Assembly: GCF_009935865.1 (NCBI RefSeq)
Contig: NZ_QWEL01000003.1
Span: forward strand, 248,001 to 312,000
Origin: Odoribacter sp. Z80
Lineage (GTDB): Bacteria > Bacteroidota > Bacteroidia > Bacteroidales > Marinifilaceae
Direction: 5' to 3'
Length of the DNA: 64,000 bases
Below the pieces are notes generated by a model that saw nothing but the letters and a program-made list of their open reading frames with translations, was not told the origin of the DNA and searched no databases. A program made the translations under genes and the position numbers. Positions 49,214 to 56,461 of this stretch are shown piece after piece (positions within the stretch are counted from its first letter, which is position 1; each line of letters opens with the position of its first letter).

Positions 49214-50308
49214 TTATTCATTCATAATTTTGGTCTGACGGTCAATAGAAGCCTGATGAATAGCCTTGAATATCTTTTCCAGAAACTCATTATCCAAACC
49301 TTTTTGATTTCCCTTCTCAAACACTTTACCCAAGATGGTGTCCCAACGCCCCGGCTGTAATATCGTAATATTATTTTGCTTCTTGTATTTTCCGATTTCA
49401 TCAGACACCCTCATCCGGCTTGCCAATAACTCCAGCAAATCATTATCAAGCACATCTATCCTGGCCCGCAATTCATCAATATTTTCTTTATATTCCACAT
49501 TTTCCGAATCAATATCCCGAATCACCAACTTATCCAATATTTCGGACAAAGCCATCGGAGTAACTTGTTGTGCAGCATCACTCAAAGCAATTTCCGGGCA
49601 AATATGAGACTCCACAATCAAACCGTCAAACCCCAAATCCATAGCCTGTTGGGAAATCTCCTGTATATATTCCCGCTTACCGGAGATATGACTCGGATCG
49701 CAAATCATTAACATTTCGGGAAAACGTCTCTTAATCTCAATCGGCAGCTGCCATTGCGGTACATTCCTGTACTTCGTTTTCCCATAAGTAGAAAATCCCC
49801 GGTGTATCACACCCATTTTTTTCAAACCCGCCATATTTAAACGTTCCAGCGCTCCAATCCACAATTCCACATCCGGATTCACAGGATTTTTTACCAGTAC
49901 CGGAATATCTGTACCCTTTAAAGCATCAGCAATTTCTTGCATCGCAAAAGGATTGGCAGTCGTCCGGGCACCAATCCACAACATATCCATTCCGGCCTTT
50001 AAAGCTTCGTAAACATGTTTTACATTCGCAACTTCAGTAGAAATTTTCATTCCCAACTCCCGTTGAACCCGCTGCATCCATGACAAACCTTCCGAACCGA
50101 CACCTTCAAAACAATTAGGACGGGTACGCGGTTTCCATATTCCCGCACGTAACACTTCCACTCCGGCATTCTTCAAAGCTTTCGCGGTTTCAAAAATTTG
50201 CTGTTCACTTTCCGCACTGCATGGCCCGGCAATAATAACCGGCTTTCTCATATCAGAAAACAGTCCCCATTTTTCCGTCTGGATTAAATCTAATTTTGTA
50301 GCTGTCAT
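49214..50308 (-). CDS. Bifunctional DAHP synthase / chorismate mutase
   Basis: This 364-residue protein fuses two activities. Residues about 1-265 form a DAHP synthase of the AroF/KDO8P-synthase-like family (GPCSAESEQQIFETAKAL, RAGIWKPRTRPNCFEGVG, CDPSHISGKREY). Residues about 270-364 form a helical AroQ-type chorismate mutase (ELRARIDVLDNDLLELLASR). It thus supplies both the first step of the shikimate pathway and prephenate formation. It is the last gene of the operon and probably a target of feedback at the protein level, as in related fusions. Confidence 0.95.
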   Translation of the reverse strand: MTATKLDLIQTEKWGLFSDMRKPVIIAGPCSAESEQQIFETAKALKNAGVEVLRAGIWKPRTRPNCFEGVGSEGLSWMQRVQRELGMKISTEVANVKHVYEALKAGMDMLWIGARTTANPFAMQEIADALKGTDIPVLVKNPVNPDVELWIGALERLNMAGLKKMGVIHRGFSTYGKTKYRNVPQWQLPIEIKRRFPEMLMICDPSHISGKREYIQEISQQAMDLGFDGLIVESHICPEIALSDAAQQVTPMALSEILDKLVIRDIDSENVEYKENIDELRARIDVLDNDLLELLASRMRVSDEIGKYKKQNNITILQPGRWDTILGKVFEKGNQKGLDNEFLEKIFKAIHQASIDRQTKIMNE

Positions 50309-50336: not shown

Positions 50337-51200
50337 CTACCGGATAATTCTCTTTATCTTATTCGCCTTATGAATCAATTTTTTTATCCCCTCCTCATCA
50401 TACTCTTCAATATGGTGCTTAAACTCTTGCAATTTCTCCATATAAGTATCCAGAACCGTTAATACATTCTCTTTATTCTGAGAAAAAATAGGAGCCCACA
50501 TATCAGCATTACTCTTAGCCAAACGCACCGTGGAAGAAAATCCCCCGGAAGCCAGGTCAAAAATATTCTTTTCATTTTTCTCCTTCTCCAAAACTGTTAA
50601 CGCCAACGCAAAAGAAGTAATATGAGAAATATGAGAAACATAAGCCGTATGTACATCATGATGGGCCGCACGCATAAAAATGATCCGCATATTCAAACAA
50701 TCATACATCTGCTTTATCAATTCCACTGCCCGGATATCCGAATCTTCCGCATTACAGATAATTCCCGCCCGGCCATCGAATAAACCGGGCAAAGCAGCCC
50801 AGGGACCTGAATATTCAGTTCCCGCCATAGGATGGGCTGCTACAAAATTTTTCCGGTTCGGATGGTACCGGACCAGATCGTTAATTTTTTCTTTTGTGGA
50901 ACAAACATCGGTTACCACCTGACGGTCCACCTTATCCAAAATATCGGGAATAATCCGGATTGCAGCACTTACCGGTACAGCAACCACAATAATATCACTG
51001 GTGGCAACACATGTTTCATAATCCACAATTTCATCCACCAATCCCAGTTCCTGTGCCGCCGCCGCATGCAAAGCATCCTGTTCCACACCGACTACCCGGT
51101 CGGCAAATCCCCTTTTTTTCAAATCCACAGCCATAGAACCGCCAATCAGACCTATTCCTATAATTCCTACTTGCATATCTTCCCTATTTAATTTCAGCAT
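50337..51200 (-). CDS. tyrA: Prephenate dehydrogenase
   Basis: This 287-residue NAD(P)-dependent enzyme converts prephenate to 4-hydroxyphenylpyruvate for tyrosine. The N-terminal Rossmann motif is GIIGIGLIGGSMAVDL, with AHPMAGTEYSGPWAALPG and AAHHDVHTAYVSHISHI as substrate and catalytic segments (the latter with the conserved His). It begins one base after the aminotransferase stop, so translation is tightly coupled. ATG at 51176 is an alternative, shorter start. Confidence 0.94.
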   Translation of the reverse strand: MLKLNREDMQVGIIGIGLIGGSMAVDLKKRGFADRVVGVEQDALHAAAAQELGLVDEIVDYETCVATSDIIVVAVPVSAAIRIIPDILDKVDRQVVTDVCSTKEKINDLVRYHPNRKNFVAAHPMAGTEYSGPWAALPGLFDGRAGIICNAEDSDIRAVELIKQMYDCLNMRIIFMRAAHHDVHTAYVSHISHITSFALALTVLEKEKNEKNIFDLASGGFSSTVRLAKSNADMWAPIFSQNKENVLTVLDTYMEKLQEFKHHIEEYDEEGIKKLIHKANKIKRIIR

Positions 51201-51201
51201 A

Positions 51202-52395
51202 CTAACAAAATGACCCGTGTTTAAAAGGAGATAACCGCAAAGCTTTCCGAATCCGGTTTAAAGCTTCCGATAAAACTTCTTGTGTCGCACACAAGGAAAT
51301 TCTGATATAATGTTCCCCATTGCTTCCAAAAATAAATCCGGGAGTGATGAATACCCTGGCTTCCTGCAAAATATAATCCGATAACTCTTCCCCGTTTTTC
51401 CAGCAATCACTAACTCTTCCCCATAGAAACATACCTCCGCTGTTTTTATCATATTTCACTTCCAATAAATCAAAAATCTCTCCGGCCAGTCTCTGCCTCT
51501 TGCGGTATTCGGCATTCAATTGGAAGTACCAATCCTTCCCCTGGGATAATGCAACGGTAGCAGCCAATTGCAAAGGTTTAAACATACCCGAATCCATATT
51601 ACTCTTTACTTTCAGGACATTGGCTATTATATCAGCCTCCCCGGCTATCATTCCGATACGCCATCCCGACATATTATGGGCTTTACTCAAAGAGTTCAAC
51701 TCCACACAACACTCCTTCGCCCCGGGAACACTGAGAATGCTCAATTGTTCTTCATTCAAAATAAAACTATAAGGATTATCATTACAAATCAAAATACCAT
51801 GTTTTAATCCGAATGCAACCAAACGTTCATACAATTGCCTGTCAGCTCTGGCACCTGTAGGCATATTGGGATAATTCGTCCACATCATTTTAACACCGGA
51901 TAAATCCATCGCTTCCAATTGCCCGAAATCGGGAAACCAACCGTTTTCCTCTTTTAAATCGTAAGGAATAATTTCTGCTTCAGCCAGCAAGGAAGCAGAA
52001 GAATAAGTCGGATAACCCGGATTGGGAACCAATACTTTGTCCCCTCTATTCAAAAAAGCCAGCGACAACAACAGAATTCCTTCTTTAGAACCCGCCAGCG
52101 GCTGAATTTCTGTAAACGGATTCAGCTCCACATCATAATACTTTTTATACCAATCAGCAAACCCCTCCCTCAGCGAAGCAATTCCTTTATAGCTCTGGTA
52201 GGCATGATTCGCAGGATTCCGAGCCTCTTTAATCAAAGCAAGGATAGCTTCTTCGGGAGGCATACGGTCCGGAGCTCCGATACCCAAATTAATCACCGGT
52301 ATGCCCTGCCGGTTCATGGCTTCAATCTCCTGCAACTTCCTGGAGAAATAATACTCACTAACACAATTCGTCCGGTTGGCGGGTTTAATAATCAT
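51202..52395 (-). CDS. Aromatic-type pyridoxal phosphate aminotransferase
   Basis: This 397-residue fold type I aminotransferase sits between pheA and tyrA in the operon, so it probably transaminates phenylpyruvate and 4-hydroxyphenylpyruvate; that role is inferred from context. Motifs are NPGYPTYSSAS, NYPNMPTGARAD and the PLP lysine in LSKAHNMSGWRIGM. Sequence features also overlap LL-diaminopimelate aminotransferases, so that alternative stays open. Confidence 0.88.
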   Translation of the reverse strand: MIIKPANRTNCVSEYYFSRKLQEIEAMNRQGIPVINLGIGAPDRMPPEEAILALIKEARNPANHAYQSYKGIASLREGFADWYKKYYDVELNPFTEIQPLAGSKEGILLLSLAFLNRGDKVLVPNPGYPTYSSASLLAEAEIIPYDLKEENGWFPDFGQLEAMDLSGVKMMWTNYPNMPTGARADRQLYERLVAFGLKHGILICNDNPYSFILNEEQLSILSVPGAKECCVELNSLSKAHNMSGWRIGMIAGEADIIANVLKVKSNMDSGMFKPLQLAATVALSQGKDWYFQLNAEYRKRQRLAGEIFDLLEVKYDKNSGGMFLWGRVSDCWKNGEELSDYILQEARVFITPGFIFGSNGEHYIRISLCATQEVLSEALNRIRKALRLSPFKHGSFC

Positions 52396-52411: not shown

Positions 52412-53230
52412 TCAACAATAACTTTTATACTCTCCCATAACGGTAATGTTTTCCAATAAAGGCTTTACTGCATTTATGGCTTCCCGGTAATGCCCGTAAT
52501 CTTCAAATTTCAGATCCACATAGAAAAAATACTGCCATTCCCGGCCGGGAATAGGTAATGACTGTATTTTCGTCAGATTCAGGTCATAGTAAGTAAAGAT
52601 TGAAAGCACTTGTGACAAACTTCCTTTTTTGTGTGGAAGAGTAAAGCAAATAGACGACTTATCCCTGTCCTTTTCAGGTACATCAATATGTTCGTCCAGA
52701 ATCAGAAAACGAGTATAATTCTGTTTATGGGTTTCTATACTGGCCTGTAAAACCTCCAAACCAAAAAGTTCTGCAGCCAATCCGGAAGCAATCGCTCCGG
52801 TATGCTTCAATCCCCGGATTGCAATATCCGCCGCACTTTTTGCCGTATCTTCCGATTCCACCAAACGAATATGCGGATATTGTTTAAAAAATTCCCGGGT
52901 CTGGGCAATAGCCATATAATGGGAATGTACTTCCCGAATATCCTCTATCCGTTGTCCGGGCAAAGCCATCAAATTTTGTTGAATACGCAGGAACACCTCC
53001 CCTTTAATCGGACAACCGTATTTATGAAGTAACGAATAATTCGGCAATAATCCTCCGGCTACGGTATTTTCAATAGCCATAACCGCCCCGTTCGCTTTTT
53101 GCTGCTCTAAACTCAGAAACAGATCCTCAAAACTCAGGCATTCACAAACTTCAATCTGATTCCCGTAAAACAAACGCGCAGCCTGCTCGTGAAAACATCC
53201 GTGTACACCTTGAATTGCAATTTTTGTCAT
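52412..53230 (-). CDS. pheA: Prephenate dehydratase
   Basis: This protein of about 272 residues makes phenylpyruvate from prephenate. Start ATG at 53230 (MTKIAIQGVHGCFHEQAA) is preferred: the longer frame would cover the second attenuator terminator. The catalytic domain shows AIENTVAGGLLPNYSLL and SEDTAKSAADIAIRG. A C-terminal ACT domain (residues about 190-272, FTLPHKKGSLSQVLSIF with the ESRP-equivalent region) is likely to bind Phe as feedback inhibitor. First gene of the operon and controlled by the tandem attenuators directly upstream. Confidence 0.95.
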   Translation of the reverse strand: MTKIAIQGVHGCFHEQAARLFYGNQIEVCECLSFEDLFLSLEQQKANGAVMAIENTVAGGLLPNYSLLHKYGCPIKGEVFLRIQQNLMALPGQRIEDIREVHSHYMAIAQTREFFKQYPHIRLVESEDTAKSAADIAIRGLKHTGAIASGLAAELFGLEVLQASIETHKQNYTRFLILDEHIDVPEKDRDKSSICFTLPHKKGSLSQVLSIFTYYDLNLTKIQSLPIPGREWQYFFYVDLKFEDYGHYREAINAVKPLLENITVMGEYKSYC

Positions 53231-53251
53231 CTTTTTTTCGTTTTTATTCTC

Positions 53252-53280
53252 AAAAAAACCCCGGACATCAAGCCGGGGTT
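53252..53280 (-). terminator. Attenuator 2 terminator (before pheA)
   Basis: On the minus strand AACCCCGG and CCGGGGTT form an eight-base stem with an eight-base loop, followed by T7. It ends 22 bases before the pheA ATG. CCGGCT at the end of its 5' arm is complementary to AGCCGG in leader peptide 2 (codons 24-25). Confidence 0.88.
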
Positions 53281-53301
53281 CATATATATTATCATACAGA
53301 T

Positions 53302-53397
53302 TCAGGACAAAATATACAGCCACCGGCTACTTCTTCTAAAATAAAAGTAGAAATAAAAATAAAACCAGTTGCTAAATCGAAAATATTTCTCCATCAT
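53302..53397 (-). CDS. Leader peptide 2 of the aromatic operon (Phe/Tyr-rich)
   Basis: This 31-codon frame starts ATGATG and reads MMEKYFRFSNW, then FYFYFYFYF, then RRSSRWLYILS. It has 7 Phe, 6 Tyr and 2 Trp. Nine alternating Phe/Tyr codons in a row have no explanation other than ribosome stalling on charged-tRNA supply. The codons after the run hold AGCCGG, complementary to the terminator's 5' arm. It ends 22 bases before the terminator stem. Confidence 0.9.
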   Translation of the reverse strand: MMEKYFRFSNWFYFYFYFYFRRSSRWLYILS

Positions 53398-53405
53398 ATC
53401 GTCAT

Positions 53406-53434
53406 AAAAAAAAGCCCTGAAATTTTCAGGGCTT
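53406..53434 (-). terminator. Attenuator 1 terminator
   Basis: On the minus strand AAGCCCTGAA and TTCAGGGCTT form a ten-base stem with a three-base loop, ending in T8. Its 5' arm AAGCCCT is complementary over seven bases to AGGGCTT (53471-53465), the sequence immediately after leader peptide 1's stop codon. Confidence 0.9.
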
Positions 53435-53471
53435 ACTTATCATATTTTTTTATTCATCATACGGAAGCCCT

Positions 53472-53528
53472 TTACTTTCTGCTAAAAAAGTAGAAATAAA
53501 AGTAATATGCATTCCAAAATGATTTCAT
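53472..53528 (-). CDS. Leader peptide 1 of the aromatic operon (Phe/Tyr-rich)
   Basis: This 18-codon frame encodes MKSFWNAYYFYFYFFSRK: 5 Phe, 4 Tyr and 1 Trp in 18 residues, with eight aromatic codons consecutively. Its TAA stop abuts AGGGCTT, the predicted antiterminator strand. The ATG lies about 14 bases from the predicted transcription start of the promoter at 53549-53579. Confidence 0.9.
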   Translation of the reverse strand: MKSFWNAYYFYFYFFSRK

Positions 53529-53548
53529 TTCTTTCAATTTTATGGCCT

Positions 53549-53579
53549 CAAAGATACAAACAAAACATTCCCTTCCAAA
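53549..53579 (-). promoter_or_regulatory. Promoter of the aromatic amino acid operon
   Basis: On the minus strand TTTG (53579-53576), a 19-base spacer, and TATCTTTG (53556-53549) match the Bacteroidetes consensus. Transcription should begin near 53542, about 310 bases before the pheA ATG. Confidence 0.85.
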
Positions 53580-53770: not shown

Positions 53771-56461
53771 ATGCCTGATTCCAAAACTTTATTTCTGCTG
53801 GACGCTTATGCGCTCATATACCGCTCGTATTATGCTTTTATCAATAATCCCCGGATTACCACAACAGGTATCAATACTTCTGCTACTTTCGGTTTTTGTA
53901 ATTTTCTGGTTGAACTGCTGGAACTGGAAAAACCCACCCACATTGCAGTAGTTTTCGACCCGGCAGGTCCAACCTTCCGCCATGAAATGTACGCGCCCTA
54001 TAAAGCCCAGCGTCCGCCCATGCCTGAAGACTTGAGGAAATCAGTTCCTTACATAAAAAATATCATTGAAGGATTAGGCATTTCGTGCATTGACGCCCCC
54101 GGCTACGAAGCCGATGACCTCATTGGCACCCTGGCCAAAAAAGCTGAAAAAGAGGGTTATACCGTTTATATGATCACGCCTGATAAAGATTACGCCCAGT
54201 TAGTCAGTGAAAAAGTCTTTATGTATAAACCGGGACGCTCCGGAAATAAATCAGAAGTCTGGGGTATCGCAGAAGTTCTGGATCACTTTGGTATAGAACG
54301 GGTGGACCAGGTGGTTGATATATTAGGCTTAATGGGCGATACTGCCGACAATGTGCCCGGATGCTCCGGTATCGGTCCGAAAAGTGCAGCCTCACTGGTT
54401 TATAAATATGGCGACATTGATGGTATTTATACCCACATCGATGAACTGAAAGGCAAACAGCGTCAAAACTTGCTGGACTGCCAGCCTACAGTTCAACTTT
54501 CCCGCACATTGGTTACCATTTGCACAGAAGTACCCACCGATATTGTTCCGGACAACCTGGAAAAAAAGCCCTTGGATGTGAAAGTATTGGAACCGATTTT
54601 CAAGGAACTTGAATTATTTTCTTTGGTCCGGAGAGTTCTGAACACCGAATCCGAAGAAGACATTGCTACTGAATTGCCTGATATCAAGGTAATTTATACC
54701 GACCGCAGTCAGGACATCCCAGCCCTTATCAAAGAATTGAAAGACTCGGACCTATTTGCTCTGTATACAGAACTCCAGGCAGATTCCTTGTATGAGTCCT
54801 GGCCCTCCCGTCTTTGTTTCGGGACCAAACCTCATGAAGTAAATTATATCTGTCTTCCGGGACTTCCGGAAAAAGCATTGGAAATACTTCTCCAATTTAA
54901 ACCGGTATTTGAAGACAGTTCCAAAACGTTGATTTCCGAAGATGTAAAAAATAACATAATCTGGTTGAAAAGGGCCGGCATTGCCGTACGAAACACAATC
55001 TTTGATGTTAAAATCGCCCATTATGTATTACACCCGGACATGTCTCACGACCTCAACCGAATTGCCCTGGAATACCTGAACTATAAACTGGCGGGCAACA
55101 AAGTAAAGGAAGAACAGCAATTGAGCCTGCAATTTGATGAAGAATTACCGGAGGAAAACGATTTTGCAGAAAACACCAATATCATTTTCCAATTGTATGA
55201 AAAACTGCGTGATGAACTTCAACAGACCGGTTTACTTACCCTTTACAACAATATTGAAATGCCTCTGGTATTTGTACTGGCAGATATGGAATACGAAGGA
55301 GTAAGTATCGATTGTGACGAACTGAAAAACATTACCCAGGAACTTAACGGAAAGATTTATGTCATTGAAAAAGAAATTTATGATTTAGCCGGCCAGGTAT
55401 TTAATATCAGTTCCCCGAAACAATTGGGGGAAATCCTGTTTGATAAACTGAAAATCGACAGTACCCATAAAAAAACCAAATCAGGACAATACAGTACTTC
55501 GGAACAAGTATTGGCCAAATTGGAAGAGGAACATCCCATAATCACCAAAATATTAGATTACAGAGGATTAAAGAAACTGGTGTCTACCTATACAGAAACT
55601 TTACCCACCTTTATAGACCGGGGAACAGGAAAAATCCATACCCATTTCAACCAGGCCGAAGCTGCTACGGGACGCCTGAGTAGTCTGAATCCCAATTTAC
55701 AGAACATCCCCATCCGTACTGAAGAAGGACGTAAAATCCGAAAAGCTTTCGTGACCGGAGATAAAGATTATGTATTCTTTTCTGCAGATTATTCACAGGT
55801 AGAACTCCGTCTAATGGCCCACCTGAGTCAGGACAAGGAATTGATCAATGCCTTCAATCATGGAATAGATGTCCATACTGCTACGGCTTCTAAAATTTAC
55901 CATGTTCCTCTCGAAGAAGTGACCAGCGAAATGCGACGCCGGGCGAAAACGGCCAATTTTGGTATTATTTACGGCATTTCCGCCTGGGGACTTGCCGAAC
56001 GTCTCCACATCAGCCGGAAAGAAGGCAAGGAACTAATAGACGGCTATTTCAAGCTCTATCCCGACGTAAAAAAATACATGGAAGAATCCGTCGAAAAAGC
56101 CCGGAAAAAAGAGTACGTAGAAACCATTATGGGGAGACGTCGTTATCTCCGCGATATAAACTCACGGAATGCAGTAATCCGGGGAATGGCCGAACGCAAC
56201 GCCATCAATGCCCCCATTCAGGGTTCCGCTGCAGACATCATCAAAATGGCTATGATTTGCATCAACAAACGCATCCGGGAAGAAGGCCTTTTGTCACGAA
56301 TGATCATTCAGGTACATGACGAATTGAATTTCAAATGTCACAAATCTGAACAACATCTCCTTCAAAGTTTAGTCACCAATTGTATGGAACAGGTAGTAAA
56401 ACTCTCCGTTCCTTTGACTGTAAGCACAGGATTCGGAGAAAACTGGTATGAGGCCCATTAA
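53771..56461 (+). CDS. polA: DNA polymerase I, proofreading site apparently inactive
   Basis: This 896-residue polymerase has three domains. Residues about 1-290 form the 5'-3' nuclease used in primer removal (YEADDLIGTLAKKAEKEG, GDTADNVPGCSGIGPKSA). Residues about 310-500 align with the 3'-5' exonuclease fold, but the metal carboxylates appear lost: Asp355 of E. coli is Tyr332, Asp424 is Asn395 and Asp501 is Asn468 (only Glu357, here Glu334, remains). Residues about 510-896 form the polymerase, with motif A DYSQVELRLMAHLS, motif B RRRAKTANFGIIYGIS and motif C VHDELNF intact. So it should replicate and repair DNA without proofreading. Confidence 0.94.
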   Translation: MPDSKTLFLLDAYALIYRSYYAFINNPRITTTGINTSATFGFCNFLVELLELEKPTHIAVVFDPAGPTFRHEMYAPYKAQRPPMPEDLRKSVPYIKNIIEGLGISCIDAPGYEADDLIGTLAKKAEKEGYTVYMITPDKDYAQLVSEKVFMYKPGRSGNKSEVWGIAEVLDHFGIERVDQVVDILGLMGDTADNVPGCSGIGPKSAASLVYKYGDIDGIYTHIDELKGKQRQNLLDCQPTVQLSRTLVTICTEVPTDIVPDNLEKKPLDVKVLEPIFKELELFSLVRRVLNTESEEDIATELPDIKVIYTDRSQDIPALIKELKDSDLFALYTELQADSLYESWPSRLCFGTKPHEVNYICLPGLPEKALEILLQFKPVFEDSSKTLISEDVKNNIIWLKRAGIAVRNTIFDVKIAHYVLHPDMSHDLNRIALEYLNYKLAGNKVKEEQQLSLQFDEELPEENDFAENTNIIFQLYEKLRDELQQTGLLTLYNNIEMPLVFVLADMEYEGVSIDCDELKNITQELNGKIYVIEKEIYDLAGQVFNISSPKQLGEILFDKLKIDSTHKKTKSGQYSTSEQVLAKLEEEHPIITKILDYRGLKKLVSTYTETLPTFIDRGTGKIHTHFNQAEAATGRLSSLNPNLQNIPIRTEEGRKIRKAFVTGDKDYVFFSADYSQVELRLMAHLSQDKELINAFNHGIDVHTATASKIYHVPLEEVTSEMRRRAKTANFGIIYGISAWGLAERLHISRKEGKELIDGYFKLYPDVKKYMEESVEKARKKEYVETIMGRRRYLRDINSRNAVIRGMAERNAINAPIQGSAADIIKMAMICINKRIREEGLLSRMIIQVHDELNFKCHKSEQHLLQSLVTNCMEQVVKLSVPLTVSTGFGENWYEAH

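Follow-up and report, generated by a model that had tools for sequence, protein, structure and literature searches.

Tandem Phe/Tyr leader-peptide attenuators predicted upstream of the pheA operon of Odoribacter sp. Z80 and recurrent among Bacteroidota

The window, a stretch of 64,000 nucleotides from Odoribacter sp. Z80 (contig NZ_QWEL01000003.1, positions 248,001 to 312,000), encodes on its minus strand an operon for synthesis of both phenylalanine and tyrosine, in the order pheA, aminotransferase, tyrA and DAHP synthase/chorismate mutase. The products are a 272-aa prephenate dehydratase (pheA, 52412-53230; Pfam PDT, 5.5e-51, and ACT), a class I/II aminotransferase (51202-52395; Pfam PF00155, Aminotran_1_2, 8.1e-55), prephenate dehydrogenase (tyrA, 50337-51200; Pfam PDH_N/PDH_C; NCBIfam NF006307 at 351 bits, cut-off 295) and a DAHP synthase/chorismate mutase (49214-50308; Pfam DAHP_synth_1 and CM_2). 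The ATG at 53230 was taken as the start of pheA; a longer reading from a GTG (to 53323), which would cross the second terminator described below, was not preferred. On the far side of the same intergenic region, a long open reading frame that reads like DNA polymerase I runs divergently on the plus strand (53771-56461).

Upstream of pheA, all on the minus strand, lie a promoter and two leader peptides, each with its own terminator. By sequence, the promoter is an exact TTTG-N19-TAnnTTTG (TTTG-N19-TATCTTTG, 53549-53579), with the -33 TTTG at 53579-53576, a spacer of 19 nt and TATCTTTG at 53556-53549. Leader peptide 1 (MKSFWNAYYFYFYFFSRK and stop, 53472-53528), read from the sequence, has an F/Y run that starts at 53507; it is followed by the 5' strand of antiterminator 1 (AGGGCTT, 53465-53471), whose partner AAGCCCT (53434-53428) is the 5' arm of terminator 1 (53406-53434), a 10-bp stem AAGCCCTGAA/TTCAGGGCTT (53434-53412) with a 3-nt loop and a T8 tract ending at 53406. 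Leader peptide 2 ((M)MEKYFRFSNWFYFYFYFYFRRSSRWLYILS and stop, 53302-53397, with a second ATG at 53394) contains the run FYFYFYFYF (53364-53338) and, within its coding sequence, the 5' strand of antiterminator 2 (AGCCGG, 53323-53328), whose partner CCGGCT (53276-53271) comprises 5' arm and loop of terminator 2 (53252-53280), an 8-bp stem AACCCCGG/CCGGGGTT (53280-53257) with an 8-nt loop and a T7 tract ending at 53252, about 20 nt from the start of pheA. Every element named in the sequence-only reading was recovered in its place when the sequence was re-read, and the operon genes were confirmed by Pfam.

Each stage combines a leader ORF rich in codons for the operon's products, an intrinsic terminator before the first gene, and an antiterminator mutually exclusive with it. 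F/Y runs of at least six residues are found on the minus strand of the window in leaders 1 and 2 only, and on its plus strand in a single FFFFFF. Both terminators fold much more stably than shuffled sequences (z of -4.56 for terminator 1 and -3.50 for terminator 2), as do the two halves of the leader folded whole (z of -2.9 and -3.9).

Comparison with relatives indicates that the arrangement has been retained. Three more genomes from the same genus, together with a sister genus (L003-L007, PheA 80-83% identical), have both leaders and both terminators; in them leader 1 takes the form MKSF(W/E)xAYYFYFYFF (L003-L005) or MK(S/P)FxxAYYFYYYFF (L006-L007) and leader 2 is likewise conserved. Peptide conservation outside the F/Y run is confined to such close relatives. 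In g2, another genus of the family (L026, L031, L160, L161, L163 and L164), both leaders are FY-rich; in genera g10-g14 (PheA about 50% identical) both are poly-Phe, for example MNRVHTNRFFFFFSM and MRTIFSFSFFFSFFFFGDEKDRILMV; and other genera have a single FY leader (L008-L010, L029). The FY runs are conserved among close relatives, as the original proposal required, and so are both terminators and both antiterminator pairings; this supports tandem Phe/Tyr leader-peptide attenuators as the best reading of the locus.

Each antiterminator strand is matched to the terminator of its own stage. In the window, own pairing is more stable than cross pairing at stage 1 (-11.8 versus -8.5 kcal/mol) and at stage 2 (-14.3 versus -9.8 kcal/mol), and in nearly all of the tandem pairs both strands favour their own terminator over that of the other stage. 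Over 148 attenuators, the strand pairs with its own terminator 5' arm at a median of -15.6 kcal/mol, versus -10.4 kcal/mol for strands taken from other loci (p = 2e-25), and 91% of strands beat shuffled sequences at z < -1.64. Antiterminator 1 is paired in six of six relatives with one two-sided change, from A-U to G-C in L004, where one position is altered in all three stage-1 segments together (terminator U-A to C-G, antiterminator A-U to G-C); the covariation amounts to a single event. Antiterminator 2 does not vary in the alignment of seven relatives, GTAGCCGG and CCCCGGC being among the invariant columns, and hence gives no covariation signal. Pairing of the antiterminator strand with the upstream leader (the 1:2 or protector helix) beats mismatched combinations over the data set (p = 2e-13); in the stage 2 family alignment this helix is 71% paired with no two-sided change, and covariation support for it was not found.

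The strand lies a median of 38 nt (148 attenuators) or 41 nt (234 attenuators) beyond the start of the F/Y run. Given the usual ribosome footprint, an early stall in the run would leave a strand about 40 nt downstream free, so the observed spacing fits a strand that is available for pairing when the ribosome stalls early in the run.

A survey of pheA loci, picked by similarity to the PheA of the window from whole genomes and named contigs, combined folding-based detection of terminators and aromatic-density detection of leaders with hand curation, which included the tandem list. Most loci in the sample are from Bacteroidales and some from Chitinophaga, Saprospiraceae and further lineages of Bacteroidia, and the fractions apply to this sample. 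Of 243 distinct Bacteroidota loci with enough upstream sequence, 160 have a single leader-terminator pair, 54 have tandem pairs and 29 have no detected pair; control flanking DNA yielded 8 pairs in 1.41 Mb, or about 0.004 per 650 nt, rising to 0.018 per 650 nt at the looser density threshold used in the survey. An FY leader is obvious at seven loci (L025, L139, L147, L162, L165, L212 and L247) where no hairpin with a U-tract was detected; these may use another mode of termination or have a terminator that the finder missed. A single mixed Phe/Tyr leader before pheA is near-universal in the surveyed Bacteroidota loci, and tandem loci are scattered over many separate lineages: in a FastTree phylogeny of PheA, which represents one gene and on which gains are indistinguishable from losses, the tandem or single state changes at least 14 times and there are 15 tandem-only clades (mean 48, minimum 43, with shuffled labels). 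The tandem arrangement first noted in the window is real and is not a peculiarity of this one genome.

The codons of the leaders follow the content of the operon. Leader sets of loci with a same-strand tyrA no more than 5.5 kb downstream all contain Tyr codons (76 of 76, median Y share 0.42), whereas at eight of the nine loci with no aminotransferase, tyrA or DAHP synthase within 5.5 kb downstream the leader contains at most one Tyr (p = 5e-7). Six of these nine pheA-alone loci belong to one clade and three (L112, L121 and L173) to seemingly separate lineages, giving about four independent cases. At L270, where the next gene downstream is convergent, pheA clearly stands alone. This match, in which Tyr codons appear to have been lost where pheA stands apart from tyrA, resembles a natural experiment and supports a function for the leaders. 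F and Y are also interleaved beyond chance (735 transitions versus 586±15.5 in permuted sequences, over 180 runs, with an effect size inflated by the non-independence of related leaders), so shortage of either amino acid should stall the ribosome, as would befit an either-amino-acid sensor.

In the same family, hisG is preceded by leaders with His runs, and trpE of several genera by Trp leaders, with a terminator after each. In genus g2 (L300, L305, L311, L312 and L315) hisG has two His-run leaders, for example MIFTRLHHHHFFLPQVSR and MTFIARHHHHHHLYLLQVNW, each with a terminator, and tandem attenuation is therefore not limited to pheA; hisG in other genera of the family has one His leader. The trpE loci of genera g2 and g10-g14 (L331-L354) have a single Trp leader each, such as KYWWWHN/C, followed by a strong terminator, and no such leader-terminator pair was found at the trpE loci of genera g7, g8 and g1 (L325-L330). 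The genome from which the window derives (99.8% complete) was searched for HisG, IlvD and the TrpE N-terminal domain, none of which was found, and its sole chorismate-binding enzyme looks like an isochorismate synthase. The organism probably lacks the capacity to synthesise His, Ile/Val or Trp, yet it retains a doubly guarded Phe/Tyr operon.

The two stages appear to share a promoter. TAnnTTTG occurs within 80 nt upstream of leader 1 at 25 of 40 tandem loci and upstream of the leader at 121 of 155 single loci, against 5.5% expected from shuffled sequences, and between terminator 1 and leader 2 in none of the 40 tandem pairs; a separate promoter for stage 2 was rejected on this count. The median distance from hairpin 1 to the start of leader 2 is 23.5 nt. 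With so short a gap and no promoter box within it, one transcript should carry both attenuators.

Judged from these features of sequence, the locus very probably comprises two classical ribosome-mediated transcription attenuators that act in series on a single transcript and both sense charged tRNA-Phe and tRNA-Tyr. With Phe and Tyr plentiful, a ribosome would traverse leader 1, the antiterminator 1 strand would be unavailable, and terminator 1 would halt RNA polymerase; polymerases leaking past it would be tested again in the same way at stage 2. In a shortage of Phe or Tyr, the ribosome would stall in the F/Y run, the strand about 40 nt downstream would anneal to the 5' arm of the terminator of its own stage, and polymerase would proceed. 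Each stage would act as an OR of Phe and Tyr shortage, and pheA would be reached only after both stages had been passed. The leaders are presumably translated, with stalling in the runs, and transcription presumably terminates at the hairpins. Two such stages would reduce basal leak multiplicatively and may give the steeper or multi-level response proposed in the sequence-only reading: with each terminator halting 90-95% of polymerases in rich medium conditions (numbers chosen for illustration), leak would be 0.25-1% instead of 5-10%. Modelling of single attenuators relates a large number of regulatory codons to high sensitivity (PMC1183508); tandem or serial stages were looked for in that study and not found.

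The stages differ in where translation would end. Leader 2 extends further past its own antiterminator strand than leader 1 does in 35 of 39 pairs (median stop at +22 versus +1 nt, p = 1e-7; the first ORF of L015, one of the 35, is misassigned). Tallied by hand, about 11 of the 13 tandem clades that had data show this pattern. In the window, leader 1 stops at the start of the strand (0) and leader 2 at +27. A natural idea is that the terminating ribosome itself would cover the strand at stage 1, and that translation would pass through the strand at stage 2. The second stage would have the tRNA pools re-tested by a fresh ribosome, and it is possible, if rather speculative, that a two-stage starvation checkpoint of unlike stages has arisen repeatedly in Bacteroidota, with the second ribosome, arriving seconds later, providing proofreading, lower leak and a noise filter beyond mere redundancy.

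Both F and Y are encoded by TTT/TAT-rich sequence, and low-complexity, T-rich DNA in an AT-rich spacer might mimic such codons by chance. This explanation is refuted: a background of 0.0037 pairs per 650 nt, set against pairs at 214 of the 243 pheA loci, excludes chance, the Tyr content follows operon content, and hisG and trpE carry His and Trp runs instead. Specialisation of the stages, one for Phe and one for Tyr, would make the leader an AND of two different signals, as might suit an operon that makes both amino acids and as the known tandem system of mgtCBR, which senses two signals, might suggest (PMC3641672). F and Y alternate in both leaders of the window, however, and Tyr occurs in 37 first and 35 second leaders of the 40 tandem pairs, with similar mean F/Y contents (4.7/3.3 versus 6.0/3.6); the split was rejected on these codon counts and is highly improbable. 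An equally slight chance attaches to hairpins that affect pheA translation or the stability of the RNA, or to leader peptides that act in trans, in place of transcription termination in cis. The end of stage 2, about 20 nt before the start of pheA, would be well placed for the former, and peTrpL of Sinorhizobium is reported as a trans-acting leader peptide (PMC7298713), but both hairpins have T7-T8 tracts and a mutually exclusive partner strand, and the peptides outside the F/Y run are conserved among close relatives only.

Somewhat less improbable, though still unlikely, is that just one of the attenuators functions, the other being left over from a duplication or redundant and in the course of loss. 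Single-stage loci are three times as common as tandem ones (160 versus 54), and in the poly-Phe clade the first leader has just 4-5 Phe codons, followed by a hairpin of lower stability (about -8 to -10 kcal/mol); against this, the closest relatives of the window keep both leaders, both terminators and both antiterminator pairings, and in the poly-Phe clade both leaders track the loss of tyrA from the operon. Two functional attenuators in series are the preferred reading.

Among the closest known systems is the leader of enterobacterial pheA (pheL; Rfam RF01859, Phe_leader), which shares with it a leader peptide with Phe codons and a mutually exclusive antiterminator and terminator before pheA; the window leader differs in its mixed Phe/Tyr codons, in being doubled, and in controlling a four-gene operon for both Phe and Tyr. 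No Rfam family matches the leader at its gathering score, and a known riboswitch or T-box was rejected on that ground; Phe_leader heads the sub-threshold list with a match to stage 1 over the full model length (33.7 bits, E of 0.0011, gathering score 55), and does not match stage 2. Bacteroid-trp (RF01692, PMC2864571) is also a cis-regulatory leader of an aromatic amino acid operon in Bacteroidetes, of trp instead of phe/tyr, and has no match in the window at gathering score, nor around the leader at E ≤ 10. In Flavobacterium psychrophilum, of the same phylum, a structured 5' element without an Rfam hit lies upstream of the same gene, pheA, and "strong clues" of leader-peptide attenuation are reported at amino-acid biosynthesis operons (PMC9723704); the main text of that report concerns Flavobacteriaceae and is without a tandem form, codon-to-operon matching or a phylum-wide survey. 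Leader-peptide-like sORFs in long 5' UTRs are described from the transcriptome of B. thetaiotaomicron (PMC7366714).

Tandem control has precedents of other kinds. The mgtCBR operon of Salmonella has tandem leader-ORF attenuators for two different signals, ATP and proline (PMC3641672), and resembles the window in having two leader ORFs in one leader mRNA, each acting on transcription into the operon; unlike those of mgtCBR, which the same paper contrasts with a system of two intrinsic terminators, the two stages in the window would sense one and the same pair of amino acids, with an intrinsic terminator for each. The tandem riboswitches of B. clausii metE (cited in PMC3641672) share with the window two regulated terminators in series before one gene; their RNA senses ligands directly, for two different signals and with no leader peptide. 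No description of a same-signal tandem Phe/Tyr array was found in the literature searched. Such an array is a classical mechanism in a new and recurrent form, and not a new category; newness is claimed for the tandem form, the single form having possibly been predicted earlier. The study of attenuation in bacteria by Lopatovskaya et al. (2010; cited in PMC4833913) may include pheA attenuators of Bacteroidetes.

Leader-peptide attenuation is textbook biology in enterobacteria and is thinly documented in Bacteroidota, a dominant gut phylum. From the survey, it would seem to be the standard means of controlling Phe/Tyr synthesis in Bacteroidota and, in the family of the window, His synthesis as well. 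Recurrence of a tandem for the same signal poses the testable question of whether attenuators in series sharpen the response, lower its leak or reduce its noise, and the difference between stages in leader stop position poses a second. Two loci carrying labels from outside the phylum, L088 (Lentisphaerae) and L095 (Sericytochromatia), encode PheA about 53% identical to that of the window and have short aromatic leaders with terminators; they are likely mis-binned Bacteroidota DNA, with transfer as a conceivable alternative.
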